NCBI RefSeq assembly: GCF_002283555.1
Contig: NZ_MVOI01000003.1
Span: forward strand, 208,536-272,535
DNA: 64,000 nucleotides
From: Rubrivirga sp. SAORIC476
GTDB taxonomy: Bacteria > Bacteroidota > Rhodothermia > Rhodothermales > Rubricoccaceae
Direction: 5' to 3'
Positions 27,836-34,007 of the stretch are shown here, piece by piece. Each line of letters starts with the position of its first letter. Positions within the stretch are counted from its first letter, which is position 1. The notes under the pieces are model-generated. The model was given only the letters and a program-made list of their open reading frames with translations. It did no database searches and was not told the origin of the DNA. The position numbers and the translations under genes were made by a program.

Positions 27836-27853
27836 CTGCTAAAAAAACAACAC
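27836..27853. promoter_or_regulatory. upstream BlaI-type operator O1
   Basis: CTGCTAAAAAAACAACAC. It matches the reverse complement of the 18-mer at 31214-31231 at 16 of 18 positions. It lies just upstream of the -35 of the blaI promoter and between the divergent VKOR-DsbA gene and blaI. Confidence 0.7.
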
Positions 27854-27859
27854 TCGCCC

Positions 27860-27888
27860 TTGACTCCTCCCGCCTGAGAGCCTACACT
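27860..27888 (+). promoter_or_regulatory. sigma-70-like promoter of the blaI operon
   Basis: TTGACT (27860-27865) and TACACT (27883-27888) with 17-base spacing, nearly canonical. A Bacteroidota-type element TAACTTTT (27893-27900) lies just downstream, so the exact initiation mode is ambiguous. Operators O1 and O2 flank the promoter. Confidence 0.6.
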
Positions 27889-27906
27889 CAGTTAACTTTT
27901 TAGCAC
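27889..27906. promoter_or_regulatory. BlaI-type operator half-site O2
   Basis: The right half TTTTTAGCAC is identical to the operator at 31214-31231 (12 of 18 positions overall). It covers the expected transcription start and ends five bases before the blaI ATG, so binding would block initiation. Confidence 0.5.
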
Positions 27907-27911
27907 ACCCC

Positions 27912-28292
27912 ATGCCTGTCCCCTCTCTCAGCCGTCGCGAGCGCCAGGTGCTCGATGTCCTGCACCGTCTCGGCCGCGCCTCCGCCGCCGATGTCCGCGA
28001 TGCCCTCGCGGACCCGCCGAGCGACTCGGCCGTCCGCACTCACCTCCGGATTCTCGAGGAGAAAGGGCACATCCGTCACGAGCAGGACGGGCCACGCTAC
28101 ATCTACCTGCCCGTACAGCCGCGCGAGGAAGCCGGGCTCTCGGCGCTGCGCCACCTGACGAAAACGTTCTTCGGCGACGCGCCCACCCGAGCCGTCGCCG
28201 CCCTCCTCGACGACGCGTCCGCCGACCTGTCCGACGCGGACCTGGACCGCCTCGACGACCTCATCCAACGCGCTCGCGCCCAGGGCCGATGA
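27912..28292 (+). CDS. blaI: BlaI/MecI/CopY-family repressor
   Basis: A 126-residue winged-helix repressor, presumably dimeric. The N-terminal domain shows SRRERQVLDVLHRLGRASAA and the recognition helix region SDSAVRTHLRILEEKGHI, with the wing HEQDGPRYIYLPV. The C-terminal dimerisation helix is short. In the family, the linker is cleaved by the partner membrane protease on signal, releasing the operator. Here the M56 protease gene overlaps the stop codon (ATGA). Palindromic sites at 27836 and 27889 indicate autorepression. Confidence 0.92.
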   Translation: MPVPSLSRRERQVLDVLHRLGRASAADVRDALADPPSDSAVRTHLRILEEKGHIRHEQDGPRYIYLPVQPREEAGLSALRHLTKTFFGDAPTRAVAALLDDASADLSDADLDRLDDLIQRARAQGR

Positions 28293-30325
28293 CTCTCCTC
28301 CTCGCCATCGCGCTCAAGGGCGCGCTCGTCCTGCTGCTCGCCGCCCTCGTGGTGCGCCTCCTGCGCCACGCCCCGGCCTCCGCCCGGCACGGAGTCTGGG
28401 CAGCCGCCTTCGCCGCCCTGCTGCTGCTGCCGCTGCTCGAAGGCGTCGGCCCGACGTGGGCCGTGGGCCTGCTCCCCCACTCCGCGACGCTGACGGCGTC
28501 TGCAGTGGCGCCGGTCCCACCCATTCCTCCCACGCCGCCGCTGCCCCCCGTCCCGCCAGCGCCCCCTGCTCCGCCGGACGCTCACCTCAGTGCGGACGGG
28601 GCCCCGGCCACGCTCGCCGAGTATGAGGCTGAGATCGAGCGCCACGCTGCGGAAGCCGCTGCTCTCGCCGAAGCGCATGCATGGGAGGTGGAAGCCGAGA
28701 TGGCAGGTCTCGAAGCTGAGATGGCGGGCTTCGAGGCTGAGATGGAAGGCTTTGAGGCCGAGATGGCCAGCTTTGGAGACTCGTGGGCCGTGTCCGCGGC
28801 TCCACAGGCCAACGGATGGTTGCGATGGGACCTCTCCCCCGTCGGCCGCTGGCTGGTCGGGCTGTGGGCTCTGGGCGCCTTCGTGGTGGGGCTCGGCTGG
28901 CTGGGCGCGGCGCTCGCCGCCCGACGCATCGTCGCGACCGCCCGCCTCGAGACTGATGACGACTGGGCGGTGCTCGCCGAGCGCGCTCGTCGCCTGAGCG
29001 GCATCGAGGGGCCTGTGCGGCTCCTCCGCACCGACGCTCTGGACGTGCCCATCGCCTGGGGCTATGGGCGTCCTGCCGTCGTCCTGCCCACCTCGGCGGA
29101 CGCCTGGGACGACGGCCGCCGCGAGGCGGTGCTCCTCCACGAGATGGCCCACCTCCGCCGCCGCGACGCCTGGACGCAGGCCATCGCCCAGGTGGCCGTC
29201 GCCGTCCACTGGATGAACCCGCTCGCGTGGTGGGGCTATCGCCGGTTCCTGGATGCGCGCGAGCACGCCTGCGACGATGCCGTGATCCAGGGCGGCGCCC
29301 GTCCGTCCGACTACGCCGCTCATCTCGTCGGCGTGGCGCGGTCGCTCCGCCGCGACCCCTACGCGCTGGCCGCCGTCGCGCCGATGGCACGGTGCGCGCC
29401 CATCGAAGACCGCATCGTCTCCATCCTCGATGCCGGGCGCCGCCGGGGCCGCCTCGGCCGCGTCGCCCACACGGCCACGGTGGTCCTGGCCGCAGGCGTC
29501 CTCCTGCCCCTGGCCGCCCTCCAGCCCGTCGCCCGGACACAGTCGGTCGAGCCCGCCCCCGTCGCCACCCCCACCGTCACCGTGACTGTCGACGCGACCT
29601 CCGGGTGGACGCCGCAGGTCGAGCCGGTCCCCGTCGTCGCCGACACCGACTCGGTCTCGGTCGTCCGCCTGGAGGACGAGTTCGACCAGGCCCAGGACGA
29701 CCTCGCGCGTGCCGGGCAGGACGTCCGGCGCCTGATCGTCGACCTCGATCGCGAAGGCGACGAGGTCGCCCGAATCCGCGCGGACGCGCTCCGGGCAGCC
29801 GAGACGGCCCTCTCCCAGATCGACCTCGGCGCGCTGCGTGTCGAGGCCGAGCGGGCTGCGATGTCGTTCAGGGCCCCGGACGAGGCCCGGCTGCTGGAGA
29901 TCCAACATGAGGCCCTCCGTCAAGCGGAGGCTGCGCTGGAGCGCATGGACTGGCAAGACGACATCCAGCGTGACGCCGAGGAGGCCGTCCGGGAGGCGCT
30001 GGAGGAGCTCCGCGAGGAGATCGAGGACCTCGAAGAGGAGGCGCGAGAGGCAGCCGACGACGCCGCCTCGGAGCGCTCCTGGCGCATGCGCGTCGATGAC
30101 CGACGCAGCACAAGGAAGGCGTCCGCCGACACGGCGCGCCTCCGCTCGACCCGCGCCGCGCAGACGGCCCGAGCCACCCCCGTTCCGCCCCAGACCCCAC
30201 GGGCGGCGCCCCGGCCGTCCGCCGCCGCCCGCCCCCGCGCGCCGCGCCCGGACACCGCCGCCTTCGACTGGGGCGCGGTCGAACGCGCCCGCGCCGCCGC
30301 GACCCGGTCCACGCCTTCCTGGTAA
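28289..30325 (+). CDS. M56-family (BlaR1-like) membrane metallopeptidase, no penicillin sensor
   Basis: A 678-residue membrane protease. The gluzincin HExxH motif is His284-EMA-His288 in LLHEMAHLRRRDAW, flanked by TM helices. LEAREHACDD-type sequence (DAREHACDDAV) supplies the third ligand region. N-terminal helices are followed by a Pro-rich stretch (about 73-98) and four heptad repeats (136-163). Canonical BlaR1 ends in a penicillin-binding domain. Here, after a TM near 395-415, the C terminus is a charged coiled-coil of more than 200 residues with no S-x-x-K motif. It therefore senses something other than, or in addition to, beta-lactams. It is coupled to blaI by ATGA. Confidence 0.9.
   Translation: MTLLLAIALKGALVLLLAALVVRLLRHAPASARHGVWAAAFAALLLLPLLEGVGPTWAVGLLPHSATLTASAVAPVPPIPPTPPLPPVPPAPPAPPDAHLSADGAPATLAEYEAEIERHAAEAAALAEAHAWEVEAEMAGLEAEMAGFEAEMEGFEAEMASFGDSWAVSAAPQANGWLRWDLSPVGRWLVGLWALGAFVVGLGWLGAALAARRIVATARLETDDDWAVLAERARRLSGIEGPVRLLRTDALDVPIAWGYGRPAVVLPTSADAWDDGRREAVLLHEMAHLRRRDAWTQAIAQVAVAVHWMNPLAWWGYRRFLDAREHACDDAVIQGGARPSDYAAHLVGVARSLRRDPYALAAVAPMARCAPIEDRIVSILDAGRRRGRLGRVAHTATVVLAAGVLLPLAALQPVARTQSVEPAPVATPTVTVTVDATSGWTPQVEPVPVVADTDSVSVVRLEDEFDQAQDDLARAGQDVRRLIVDLDREGDEVARIRADALRAAETALSQIDLGALRVEAERAAMSFRAPDEARLLEIQHEALRQAEAALERMDWQDDIQRDAEEAVREALEELREEIEDLEEEAREAADDAASERSWRMRVDDRRSTRKASADTARLRSTRAAQTARATPVPPQTPRAAPRPSAAARPRAPRPDTAAFDWGAVERARAAATRSTPSW
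28694..28777 (+). repeat. four 21-bp tandem repeats encoding heptads
   Basis: Four consecutive in-frame units encode AEMAGLE, AEMAGFE, AEMEGFE and AEMASFG (residues 136-163 of the M56 protein). The heptad pattern predicts a coiled-coil between TM segments, and repeat number could vary between strains. Confidence 0.9.
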
Positions 30326-30330
30326 CCCCC

Positions 30331-31143
30331 ATGCGTCTCCCCCTCCTCGCGACCGCCCTCCTGCTGCTCCCAGCGACGGCGTGCGCCCAGTCTCATCCGA
30401 GCCGCACCCTCGCGGACGATGCGTGGTGCGAGGACGCCGAGGGTCGAGGAGACCGTGTGGTGGCGTGCGAAGTCCGCGAGACCGTGCTCCGAACGGACGC
30501 GCTGGACGTGACCGTGATGAATGGAGCCCTCACCGTCACCGAGTGGGACCGGCCGGACGTGCTGGTCCGCGCCCGCGTGGTCGCCACCGCCGACGACGAG
30601 GCCGTCGCTTGGAGGCGGGTCCGAGAAACGACCGTGTCCACGACGGAGGGCCTCATCCGCGCAGAGGCGCCCCGCCACCGGGACGGCAGCGCATCGGTCA
30701 GCTTCGAGATCTTCGCTCCGAAAGCGACCGACCTGACCGCCGCAGCCCTCAACGGCCCGGTCCATGTAGAAGGCCTCGACGGCACCATCCGCGCGACTGC
30801 GACCAACGGTCCGGTCTGCCTCGTCAAGCTCTCGGGCGACGTGGAGGTCAACGCGACCAACGGCCCCGTCTCGATCGACCTCCGAGGCGACGCCTGGACC
30901 GGGTCCGGCCTGGCGGTCCACGCCACGAACGGGCCGATCACGATGGACCTGCCTGCGCGCTACTCCGCCCGCCTGATGGCGGAGACCGCTCAGGGTCCGA
31001 TCGTCGCGCCAGGCCTGCACACCCTGCGTGGCCGTGGCGGACGTGGCGACCGCCTGGACGCGACCCTCGGCGCGGGCGGCGGGCTGCTCACGCTCGACGC
31101 CCACAACGGGCCGGTCCGCATCCGGACTTCCGAGGGGAGCTGA
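30331..31143 (+). CDS. DUF4097-type secreted protein
   Basis: A 270-residue exported protein with a signal peptide ending near residue 20 (TACAQS). The mature part is a repetitive beta-helix-like fold: ALNGPVHVEG, ATNGPVCLVK, ATNGPVSIDL, ATNGPITMDL and AHNGPVRIRT occur at regular intervals, the signature of DUF4097 (putative adhesin) proteins. It follows the M56 gene by five bases, so blaI, M56 and this gene are one operon. The family often sits with such regulators in Bacteroidota, but its role is not known. Confidence 0.82.
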   Translation: MRLPLLATALLLLPATACAQSHPSRTLADDAWCEDAEGRGDRVVACEVRETVLRTDALDVTVMNGALTVTEWDRPDVLVRARVVATADDEAVAWRRVRETTVSTTEGLIRAEAPRHRDGSASVSFEIFAPKATDLTAAALNGPVHVEGLDGTIRATATNGPVCLVKLSGDVEVNATNGPVSIDLRGDAWTGSGLAVHATNGPITMDLPARYSARLMAETAQGPIVAPGLHTLRGRGGRGDRLDATLGAGGGLLTLDAHNGPVRIRTSEGS

Positions 31144-31152
31144 GACAAATCA

Positions 31153-31170
31153 GGGCACACCGTCGTGCCC
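31153..31170 (+). terminator. hairpin after DUF4097 gene
   Basis: GGGCAC-ACCGTC-GTGCCC, a perfect 6-bp stem nine bases after the stop, without a T tract. It may weakly terminate the blaI operon. Confidence 0.4.
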
Positions 31171-31213
31171 AACCCGAAGGTTAACAGCGTTCTGAGACAC
31201 CCAGACGCAGGAG

Positions 31214-31231
31214 GTGCTGTTTTTTTAGCAC
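31214..31231. promoter_or_regulatory. BlaI-type operator O3 before the DUF5916 gene
   Basis: GTGCTGTTTTTTTAGCAC, a perfect inverted repeat GTGCT-N8-AGCAC. It nearly equals O1 in reverse orientation and lies 55 bases before the next gene, with a TAACTAT -10-like element at 31238. This puts the DUF5916 gene under the same repressor. Confidence 0.7.
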
Positions 31232-31286
31232 AGCGAGTAACTATCCGCCGCCTCCCCCGTCTTGGGACTGCACGCCCCACACACTC

Positions 31287-34007
31287 ATGCGCCTCGCTCT
31301 CCTCGCTCTCGCCGTCACCCTCGCCCTTCCGGCGGCGTCTCAGACCTCTCTTCCTCCGACCGCACCGGTCACCATCGACGGCCCGCTGAGCCTCGCCGCA
31401 CACAGCCTCTCGGACACCGCCATCAACCTCGATGGCCGCCTGGACGACGCGGCCTGGGCCGATGCCGAGGTCGCGACGGGCTTCGTCCAGTTCCGCCCCA
31501 CCCCGGGCGACGCCGCCTCCGAGCGCACCGAGGCGCGCGTCCTCTACGACGCGGACGCGATCTACGTCGGCATGCGGCTCCATGACTCCGAGGCCGAGGC
31601 CATCGGCGCTCCGCTCGGCCGCCGCGACGCCAACCTGTCCGGCGACTGGGCCTTCGTCGCCGTCGACTCCTACCGCGACGGGCGGACGGGCTTCATCTTC
31701 GCCCTCAACCCGGCCGGCGTGCAGCGCGACATGCTGATCTACGACAACGTCAACGAGGACGACTCGTGGGATGCCGTCTGGGACGGCGCCGCCAGCCGCG
31801 ACGCCGACGGGTGGACGGCCGAGTTCCGGATCCCCCTCAGCCAGCTCCGCTACGCCGCCGACCGCGAGACCCAGGAGTGGGGCTTGCAGTTCGGCCGGAC
31901 CCACTTCCGAACCGGCGAGGAGTCCTTCTGGAACCCGATGAGCCCGGACGAGGACGGCATGGTGTCGCAGTTCGGGACCCTCCGCGACCTCCGCGGCCTC
32001 CGCCCGCCGCGCCAGTTGGAGATCATGCCCTACGTCGCCTCGGCGCTGACACGGGCCCCCGGCGACGCGGCCGACCCGTTCTACTCCTCGAACGACCTGG
32101 AGCCGCGCGTCGGCCTGGATGTCAAGTACGGACTCACGAGCGATCTCACGCTCACCGCCACCGTCAACCCGGACTTCGGGCAGGTCGAGGCGGACCCGGC
32201 GCGCGTCAACCTGGGTGGCTTCGAGCTGTCGTTCGAAGAACGGCGCCCGTTCTTCGTCGAGGGCACCGACGTGTTCAACATGCAGCCGCGGCGCTTCTTC
32301 GGCATGAACCGCCCCGGGCTGCTCTACACGCGCCGCATCGGGCGGAGCCCGCAGCGCGGCAACTTCGTCTCCCAGGAGGCGACCGATGCGGCCGGCGACG
32401 CGGGGACGATCTACACAGACGCGCCCCAGCAGAGCACCATCCTGGGCGCCGCAAAGCTGTCGGGCCGCGTCGGCCGGTTCTCGGTGGGCGTGCTGAACGC
32501 CGTCACCGCGCCGGAGTACGGCCAGTTCCGCGCCTACGACCCCACCGGCTCGCTCGTCGCCGATGACCGCGCGCTCGTCGAGCCCGCCACCAACTTCGCC
32601 GCCGCCCGCGCCCGCGGCACCTACGGCCGGACGACGCTCGGCGTGCTCGGCACGTCGGTCCTCCGTAGCACCGCCGATGCCGCCATTGCCGAGGCCCTCC
32701 CCGGCCAGGCCGCCGTCCTCGGCGTCGACGTGGAGCACCAGCTGTCCGACGACTGGATCCTGAACGCGCAGCTCGCGGGCAGCCACGTCAGCGGCAGCGC
32801 CGCCTCCATCGACCGCGTCCAGCGCGCCTTCCCGCGCCTCTTCCAGCGGCCCGACGCCGACCACCTCGACTACGACCCCACGCGGACCTCGATCTCGGGC
32901 CTGACCGGCGAGGCCAACCTGCTCAAGTCGGGCGGCGAGCACTGGGTCGGCTCGGTCCATGCCGAGTTCACCTCCCCCGGCTTCGACGCCAACGCGCTCG
33001 GTTTCCAGAGCCGGGCCGACGAGCTCGGCATCGGCGCCGTGGTGGTGTACCAGCAGAACCAGGCCCAGGGGCCGTTCCAGAGCTGGAGCGCGAACTCCTT
33101 CGCCGGGCGGCGCGGCAACTTCGACGGCGACCAGACGGCGCTGTTCGTCGGCGGCAACGCCAACGGCCGGTTCAAGAACTTCTGGGGGGTCGGGGTGAAC
33201 GGCGAGCGCTACTTCGCCAGCATGAGCGACCGCCTGACGCGCGGCGGCCCGCTCGCGTCCACGCCCGGCGGCTTCGGCCTCAACCTGAACGCCTGGAGCG
33301 ACGACCGCAAGCCGATCTCCGGCTACGCGTGGACGGGCTACAACCGGGACGACCTCGGGAGCACGTTCAACGGCTTCGAGGCCGGGATCGAGGCCCGTCC
33401 CAGCTCGTCGGTGACGGTCCGCGTCGGCCCCGAGCTGTACCTCTCCTCCGACCCGCAGCAGTACGTCACGAGCGACGACGCGCCCGCGCTGGACGCCACC
33501 TTCGGCCGCCGCTACGTCTTCGGCCGCATCGACCAGACGACGGTGTCGCTGGAGACGCGCGTCGACTGGACGTTCACGTCGCGTCTCTCGCTCCAGGTCT
33601 ACGCCCGGCCCTTCGTTTCGCGAGGCCGCTACGACGCCTTCCGCCAGATGACGGCGCCCGGCCAGCTCGACTTCCCGCGCTTCGGCACCGACATCGGATC
33701 CATCGAGGAGGTCTACGCCGAGGGCGCCACGCCCGGCGTCGACGCGCCCGAGTCGTACGTCGTGACCGGCCCCGACGGCGGGACGACTGAGTTCGGCAAC
33801 CCCGACTTCACCGTCCGCGCCCTCCAGGGAAATGCGGTCCTGCGGTGGGAGTACCGGCCCGGCTCGGCGCTCTTCCTGGTCTGGCAGCAGCAGCGGAACG
33901 GCTTCTCGAGCGACCGCGGCTTCAACCTGAACCGCCAGGTGTCGGATCTCTTCCGCGACCAGTCCACGAACGTCTTCCTCCTCAAGCTGAGCTACTGGCT
34001 CGGCTGA
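31287..34007 (+). CDS. DUF5916 outer-membrane protein with CBM9-like N-terminal domain
   Basis: A 906-residue envelope protein. The signal peptide ends near residue 19 (LPAASQ). Residues about 40-240 form a family-9 carbohydrate-binding-like domain (NLDGRLDDAAWADAEVATGF, VLYDADAIYVGMRLHDSE, FRIPLSQLRYA). The remaining 650 residues alternate strands and turns of an outer-membrane beta-barrel (DUF5916), with EERRPFFVEGTDVFNMQPR as the family core and an aromatic C terminus (LLKLSYWLG). The family has no fixed function, and the barrel end suits surface binding or uptake. The palindrome at 31214 implies BlaI control. Confidence 0.88.
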   Translation: MRLALLALAVTLALPAASQTSLPPTAPVTIDGPLSLAAHSLSDTAINLDGRLDDAAWADAEVATGFVQFRPTPGDAASERTEARVLYDADAIYVGMRLHDSEAEAIGAPLGRRDANLSGDWAFVAVDSYRDGRTGFIFALNPAGVQRDMLIYDNVNEDDSWDAVWDGAASRDADGWTAEFRIPLSQLRYAADRETQEWGLQFGRTHFRTGEESFWNPMSPDEDGMVSQFGTLRDLRGLRPPRQLEIMPYVASALTRAPGDAADPFYSSNDLEPRVGLDVKYGLTSDLTLTATVNPDFGQVEADPARVNLGGFELSFEERRPFFVEGTDVFNMQPRRFFGMNRPGLLYTRRIGRSPQRGNFVSQEATDAAGDAGTIYTDAPQQSTILGAAKLSGRVGRFSVGVLNAVTAPEYGQFRAYDPTGSLVADDRALVEPATNFAAARARGTYGRTTLGVLGTSVLRSTADAAIAEALPGQAAVLGVDVEHQLSDDWILNAQLAGSHVSGSAASIDRVQRAFPRLFQRPDADHLDYDPTRTSISGLTGEANLLKSGGEHWVGSVHAEFTSPGFDANALGFQSRADELGIGAVVVYQQNQAQGPFQSWSANSFAGRRGNFDGDQTALFVGGNANGRFKNFWGVGVNGERYFASMSDRLTRGGPLASTPGGFGLNLNAWSDDRKPISGYAWTGYNRDDLGSTFNGFEAGIEARPSSSVTVRVGPELYLSSDPQQYVTSDDAPALDATFGRRYVFGRIDQTTVSLETRVDWTFTSRLSLQVYARPFVSRGRYDAFRQMTAPGQLDFPRFGTDIGSIEEVYAEGATPGVDAPESYVVTGPDGGTTEFGNPDFTVRALQGNAVLRWEYRPGSALFLVWQQQRNGFSSDRGFNLNRQVSDLFRDQSTNVFLLKLSYWLG

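Follow-up and report, generated by a model that had tools for sequence, protein, structure and literature searches.

A palindrome of the rough form NTGCTAA-N4-TTAGCAN is likely the operator of a BlaI subfamily, to judge from its conservation upstream of blaI genes, and in Rubrivirga sp. SAORIC476 predicted copies of it stand both at the promoter of a blaI operon and, next to an ECF-like promoter, upstream of the DUF5916 gene which ends the same cluster. The copies lie in a stretch of 64,000 nucleotides (the window), to which coordinates refer unless another contig is named. What is new here is a BlaI operator variant occurring across phyla together with an operator-ECF composite, and not an operator specific to one genome. 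To our knowledge, BlaI-M56 pairs are also found in genomes without a known beta-lactam role, and their targets are largely uncharacterised.

Results

The window is part of a 4.48-Mb genome and carries a cluster in the order blaI, M56, DUF4097-like, DUF5916, all on the + strand. The blaI-type repressor gene (27912-28292, +) encodes 126 amino acids with a Penicillinase_R domain (Pfam PF03965, E=3e-23, 82.8 bits against a cut-off of 22.6), and the profile of its family retrieves the MecI structure 1okr (E=1.5e-11) and the BlaI structure 1sd4 (E=1.7e-09). Its stop is overlapped by 4 nt by the start of a gene for a BlaR1-type membrane zinc protease (28289-30325, +), for which Peptidase_M56 was the sole Pfam family matched (E=2.7e-28). 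The gene for a secreted DUF4097-like ('toastrack') protein (30331-31143, +) begins 5 nt further on; its Pfam DUF4097 match is weak and under the cut-off (E=0.021), and the nearest NCBIfam models are LiaX and LiaG (E=4e-6 and 9e-6), likewise under their cut-offs. After a gap of 143 nt follows the DUF5916 gene (31287-34007, +; Pfam DUF5916 E=5.6e-61), whose product is a predicted envelope protein with an N-terminal CBM9-like domain (Pfam CBM9_1 E=4.9e-06). Pfam detected neither a beta-lactamase nor a PBP2a target gene in the cluster. In ten relatives, picked for having blaI and DUF5916 on one contig, blaI, M56 and DUF5916 kept the same order and strand without exception (10/10), and six of the ten had a DUF4097-type match between M56 and DUF5916. 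DUF5916 is the conserved last gene of a blaI-M56-(DUF4097)-DUF5916 cluster and not the separate locus assumed in the preliminary description.

Two predicted operators bracket one promoter in front of blaI; none of the predicted operators is assigned a strand. O1 (CTGCTAAAAAAACAACAC, 27836-27853) stops 6 bp short of the -35 hexamer in a sigma-70-type promoter (TTGACT-N17-TACACT, 27860-27888, +), and O2 (CAGTTAACTTTTTAGCAC, 27889-27906) begins directly past its -10 element. With its 17-bp spacer, this promoter is the only promoter-like match between 27700 and 28000 (shuffles mean 0.0). The third predicted operator, O3 (GTGCTGTTTTTTTAGCAC, 31214-31231), lies upstream of the DUF5916 gene, and 5 bp past it starts an ECF-sigma-like promoter (GTAAC-N16-CGTC, 31237-31261, +), which the preliminary description had overlooked. 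O1 and O3 each end 5-6 bp ahead of a -35 element, and they agree at 16 of 18 positions when one is inverted, exactly as noted before; a search with GTGCTGTTTTTTTAGCAC allowing up to three mismatches returned the places of O1 and O3 only, with 0 matches in 100 dinucleotide shuffles. The third site formerly described at the blaI start region (TTTTTAGCAC) exists as well, not as a half-site but as the right half of the full imperfect operator O2. A TACA..TGTA core is absent from O1, O2 and O3. With 11/14 (O1) and 12/14 (O2) consensus positions both blaI sites are imperfect here, which counts against the operator model; the O2 place holds better palindromes in relatives (GTGTTAAAAATTTAGCAC in L015, GTGTTAAAAAATTAACAC in L035 and L037), and a site at the O1 place recurs in relatives, too. 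A paralogous blaI of the same genome (L006, C3:2068999) has another candidate operator at its promoter, TTCGAACCGAATCGAA, along with the similar TTCGATCCGGTTCG.

Several patterns were compared with control searches. The genome-wide search for GTGCT-N8-AGCAC, as proposed earlier, gave no enrichment in the 4.48 Mb (17 matches against 21 in the reversed control); a T6-core pattern with up to three mismatches showed no excess in this genome (9 against 10), nor did the perfect GTGYTA-N6-TARCAC in 60 genomes (32 against 52). The latter pattern was used only for its spread among genomes with and without a blaI orthologue, being present in 14/33 of the former and 1/27 of the latter (p=0.0006). TGYTRNTTTTTTARCA, with at most one mismatch, matched 56 times in nine genomes of the family against 6 in the control, and 5 times against 1 in this genome alone. 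The information sits in the A/T core plus TGYT..ARCA. The missing genome-wide enrichment of the bare-arm patterns counts against the operator model and would suit a reading in which the palindromes are A/T-rich stretches arisen by chance on a G+C-rich background; the conservation of the sites has to be weighed against this reading.

For this purpose 30 blaI orthologue loci of the Rhodothermales, one per genome, were scanned over 200 bp upstream for GTGYTAA-N4-TTARCAC. A site with at least 11/14 positions was present in 27/30 (shuffles mean 0.73, max 5; coding control 0/30), and two such sites in 17/30. Below the threshold were L014, L028 and L030, whose palindromes have diverged; the further two blaI copies in this genome reach 9. 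A second set consisted of 80 named loci, the best 80 of 541 relatives, picked by protein similarity only and belonging mostly to Acidobacteriota, Gemmatimonadota and Planctomycetota, besides Verrucomicrobiota, Aminicenantes and others. About 77 of them are independent of the first set, as two Rhodothermales records and L262 overlap with it. Of these best 80 of 541 relatives, 69 had a site matching 11/14 or more (shuffles mean 1.15, max 5) and 50 had one matching 12/14 or more (shuffles mean 0.07, max 1), compared with just 5 sites of at least 12 per 420,843 positions in the remainder of these loci. Two sites scoring 10 or more were present in 63 of the 80, most often 19 bp apart, and a downstream open reading frame with the M56 motif pair in 74. 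The consensus of the 69 relatives reads TGCTAA..TTAGCA. In L184-L263 tandem operators with a 19-bp pitch are the commonest layout (33/70 among the spacings listed), unlike the promoter-bracketing layout of 52-62 bp that is common in Rhodothermales.

The comparison of orthologous upstream regions suggested in the preliminary description has thus found the palindrome kept together with blaI in both sets, contrary to the refuting outcome named there, retention of blaI but not of the palindrome. Conservation in 27/30 and in 69 of the best 80 of 541 relatives, the low background, the 56 family matches against 6 and the 19 composites against 0 described below contradict the chance reading, whose probability we regard as negligible. 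Taken together with the distribution over genomes with and without blaI (14/33 against 1/27), the conserved sites and their low background make BlaI the likely ligand. Recognition helix and half-site covaried weakly (partial Mantel r=0.22, p=0.039; 29 of the 30 orthologues, this genome being omitted as its sites fall below the de novo palindrome filter), and a single-residue comparison (SA/SG versus base 7) gave no clean residue-to-base rule. The orthologues L025 and L030 combine an altered recognition helix (YNAVRVTLG and YNSVRITLG, respectively) with palindromes of TGCAAA type, not TGCTAA. One Rhodothermales family has GTGCTATGTTTGTAGCAC, which retains one TACA half.

Upstream of DUF5916, O3 was present in 6/6 loci of the genera g1 and g2 (the window, L157-L160 and L145). 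It was absent from 6/6 cluster loci outside these genera (L151-L156), which counts against the model; DUF5916 may there be transcribed from the blaI promoter. By eye, a layout close to O3-GTAAC-N16-CGTC could be made out at each DUF5916 site listed (12) and at each listed site of a second DUF4097 gene (3), one of the latter reading GTACC, and a similar layout is also seen past O2 at blaI in several families (L013, L015, L016, L029, L036). A strict composite, TTTTARCA-N4-8-GTAAC-N15-17-CGT, had 19 matches over the 60 genomes and none in the control. Fifteen of the 19 precede DUF5916 genes, as matched by coordinates to the list of DUF5916 sites, three stand before DUF4097 genes (assigned by Pfam in L140 and L181, by likeness in G001) and one before a lumazine-binding-like gene. 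In this genome, a looser composite was found in two places only, both at DUF5916 genes (that of the window and a 44%-identical paralogue), and was absent from three other DUF5916 paralogues examined; the site of the second DUF5916 gene reads GTGCGAAAAATTTCGCAT. GTAAC as -35, a spacer of 15-17 bp and CGT as -10 are typical of ECF-sigma-dependent promoters, and both the sequence of the candidate promoter beside O3 and the composite statistics fit this pattern. The ECF composite was not found in the upstream regions of the 80 relatives, a further point against the model. Before the DUF5916 gene of L176 (G037:C1, near 1426753), palindromes stand both before the -35 and after the -10 of the ECF-like promoter, an arrangement resembling O1 and O2 around the blaI promoter.

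The close and almost constant spacing (a few bp) between O3 and the ECF-like -35 is also what an activator site or a UP-like A/T tract would give. O3-type sites might hence belong to another regulator or be an extended upstream ECF element, with BlaI controlling its own operon only and the likeness arising from a shared A/T tract; the absence of O3 in relatives where DUF5916 directly follows M56 goes in the same direction. Yet the outer TGCT/AGCA arms of O3-type sites match the arms of the blaI sites in their own genome (for O1 and O3 the agreement given above), the ECF-like promoter of G037 is flanked by two palindromes, and in the nine family genomes blaI, DUF5916 and DUF4097 genes all have such sites. 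We therefore regard a separate origin of O3 as unlikely. As operator-bearing DUF5916 and DUF4097 genes recur in relatives, blaI and DUF5916 probably share one regulon under BlaI. The regulon proposed in the preliminary description is partly right and larger than thought.

Of the 56 TGYTRNTTTTTTARCA matches in the nine family genomes, DUF5916 genes account for 12, blaI for 8 and DUF4097 genes for 3; the 33 elsewhere were judged by position, plus Pfam where scanned. We do not claim all 56 as true operators, since only 23 lie at blaI, DUF5916 or DUF4097 genes. Many of the remaining matches (G005, G006, G008) are found roughly 15-110 bp upstream of genes whose products are apparently secreted. DUF1579, DUF58, vWF-A/YfbK, lumazine-binding-like or SnoaL-like and DUF4440 families were met in two genomes, at least one member of each being assigned by Pfam and its partner by Pfam or likeness; further candidate targets are HtrA-like, M13 and M16 proteases, DUF4139, DUF2911 and an outer-membrane (OMP) barrel. 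This recurrence of secreted and envelope gene families suggests that the candidate regulon may serve envelope homeostasis. G006 carries 15 sites, and BlaI was not found in it, which speaks against the model; this genome is 88% complete, so its blaI may lie in an assembly gap. In G005 (L133, contig C139, about position 2015) an operator-like site separates a DUF4440 gene from a divergent beta-lactamase-family gene (PF00144). The earlier statement that no beta-lactamase is involved is true of the cluster, with a possible exception in this relative.

Discussion

We consider it fairly probable that the cluster encodes an M56-BlaI envelope-stress regulon in which O1-O3 serve as BlaI operators and an ECF factor adds a second control. 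BlaI dimers on O1 and O2 would bracket the sigma-70 promoter and thereby repress blaI-M56-DUF4097 (autoregulation), and a dimer on O3, against the -35 of the ECF-type promoter, would repress DUF5916. A dimer so placed, 5-6 bp before a -35, might obstruct sigma region 4 or the C-terminal domain of the alpha subunit. The position of O3 upstream of the -35 counts against repression, because an activator could sit there, too. M56 would sense a disturbance of the envelope and cut BlaI, upon which the secreted and surface proteins that make up the regulon would be released from repression. DUF5916 would additionally require an ECF sigma factor and would, by this second requirement, integrate two envelope signals.

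The M56 protein of the window contains HEMAH and EHACD, i.e. the HExxH and ExxxD motifs, and the motif pair was present in 12/12 relatives scanned. Motifs of this type define the protease of BlaR1 according to the available text of PMC9834060, which also places the cleavage site of BlaI at Asn101/Phe102. This site aligns with A97/L98 here, L98 being nearly invariant, so that A97/L98 would be compatible with the BlaI cleavage position. A C-terminal penicillin-binding sensor domain was not found in the M56 protein either by Pfam, which gives M56 alone, or by NCBIfam, whose blaR1_generic model matches only 97-252 of 585 with 67.5 against a cut-off of 400 bits. Since this domain was not found, beta-lactams as such are probably not the signal. 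Ahead of the protease part (window 28505-28790), a proline-rich stretch is followed by near-perfect 7-residue repeats (EAEMAGL/EAEMAGF/EAEMEGF), at roughly the place of the signalling loop EL1 in BlaR1; they are possibly a sensor element.

BlaI could also bind the sites and be released by a small ligand, such as a peptidoglycan fragment or a metal, in place of M56 cleavage. Ligand release has been proposed for B. licheniformis BlaI and is known for CopY; the accessible part of PMC3305447 reports release of operator-bound BlaI by a peptidoglycan dipeptide, and the best NCBIfam model for the BlaI of the window is CopY_TcrY, far under its cut-off (40 against 122 bits). The 4-nt overlap of M56 with blaI, the M56-motif frame downstream of blaI in 74 of the best 80 of 541 relatives and the protease motifs intact in all 12 relatives scanned argue for cleavage instead, and we judge a ligand-only release to be quite improbable. 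For BlaI released by M56, the closest precedents are BlaI/BlaR1 and MecI/MecR1 of Staphylococcus and Bacillus licheniformis, with which the present system shares a winged-helix BlaI repressor encoded beside an M56 protease (HExxH..ExxxD), palindromic operators placed at the promoter and the implied autoregulation. It differs from them in the core, which is TAA..TTA with TGC outer arms here and TACA..TGTA in the B. licheniformis OP1 oligonucleotide (PMC3305447, as far as its text is available), in the penicillin-binding sensor domain, which was not found, and in the targets, DUF4097 and DUF5916 genes, not bla or mecA.

Operators without a TACA core have precedent. As reported in the accessible sections of PMC8457756, Clostridium thermocellum BlaI_0696 and BlaI_1845 are encoded beside BlaR1 genes and recognise GTCTAT inverted repeats and GACTAT; two inverted-repeat pairs at the target promoters and autoregulation are described there together with DAP-seq and EMSA data, and the regulons cover three operons and one operon. 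The BlaR1-type neighbour, the non-TACA operator, the paired inverted repeats and the autoregulation, predicted here, are common to both systems; the half-site TGCTAA and the phyla differ, and an ECF-type composite is absent from the description in those sections. The claim of a new, non-TACA operator hence holds as regards the missing TACA..TGTA core of O1-O3, and falls short in that the sequence is common to a BlaI subfamily and non-TACA operators had already been measured in C. thermocellum. The CopY/CopR copper repressors belong to the same fold family and also use two operators at the promoter (PMC7253601, in the portion available). With the two dyads aligned manually, the CopY operator RNYKACANNTGTMRNY and the present one share Y-T-A 4-6 bases from the centre, but differ in the inner CA, the outer TG and the core. 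CopY/CopR are metal-regulated via C-terminal CXC motifs in the same portion of that source; such motifs are absent here. By this comparison the operator appears to be a variant in the same frame as the known BlaI/CopY operators, not a new kind. In the open-licence PMC literature no title or abstract start was found that describes this operator, and no paper was found with the term DUF5916.

Known envelope-stress regulons include the Lia, Cpx and ECF-type systems. A link may be seen in the DUF4097-like protein, nearest to LiaX/LiaG (below cut-offs), and in the secreted proteases and envelope proteins among the candidate targets; in contrast to Lia/Cpx, a BlaI-M56 pair and not a two-component system would be in charge here.

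A wider generalisation is offered more tentatively, as a possibility: a BlaI subfamily found across many phyla may have NTGCTAA-N4-TTAGCAN as an operator of its own and run M56-sensed envelope-homeostasis regulons unrelated to beta-lactams, and the ECF wiring of Rhodothermales may restrict DUF5916 and DUF4097 proteins to conditions in which two independent envelope sensors agree. With a defined subfamily operator, regulons become readable from sequence in many phyla, and the operator-ECF composite offers DUF5916 genes an initial role that is open to testing. The predicted circuit points to a control of the cell envelope that would be built from parts used elsewhere for penicillin sensing.
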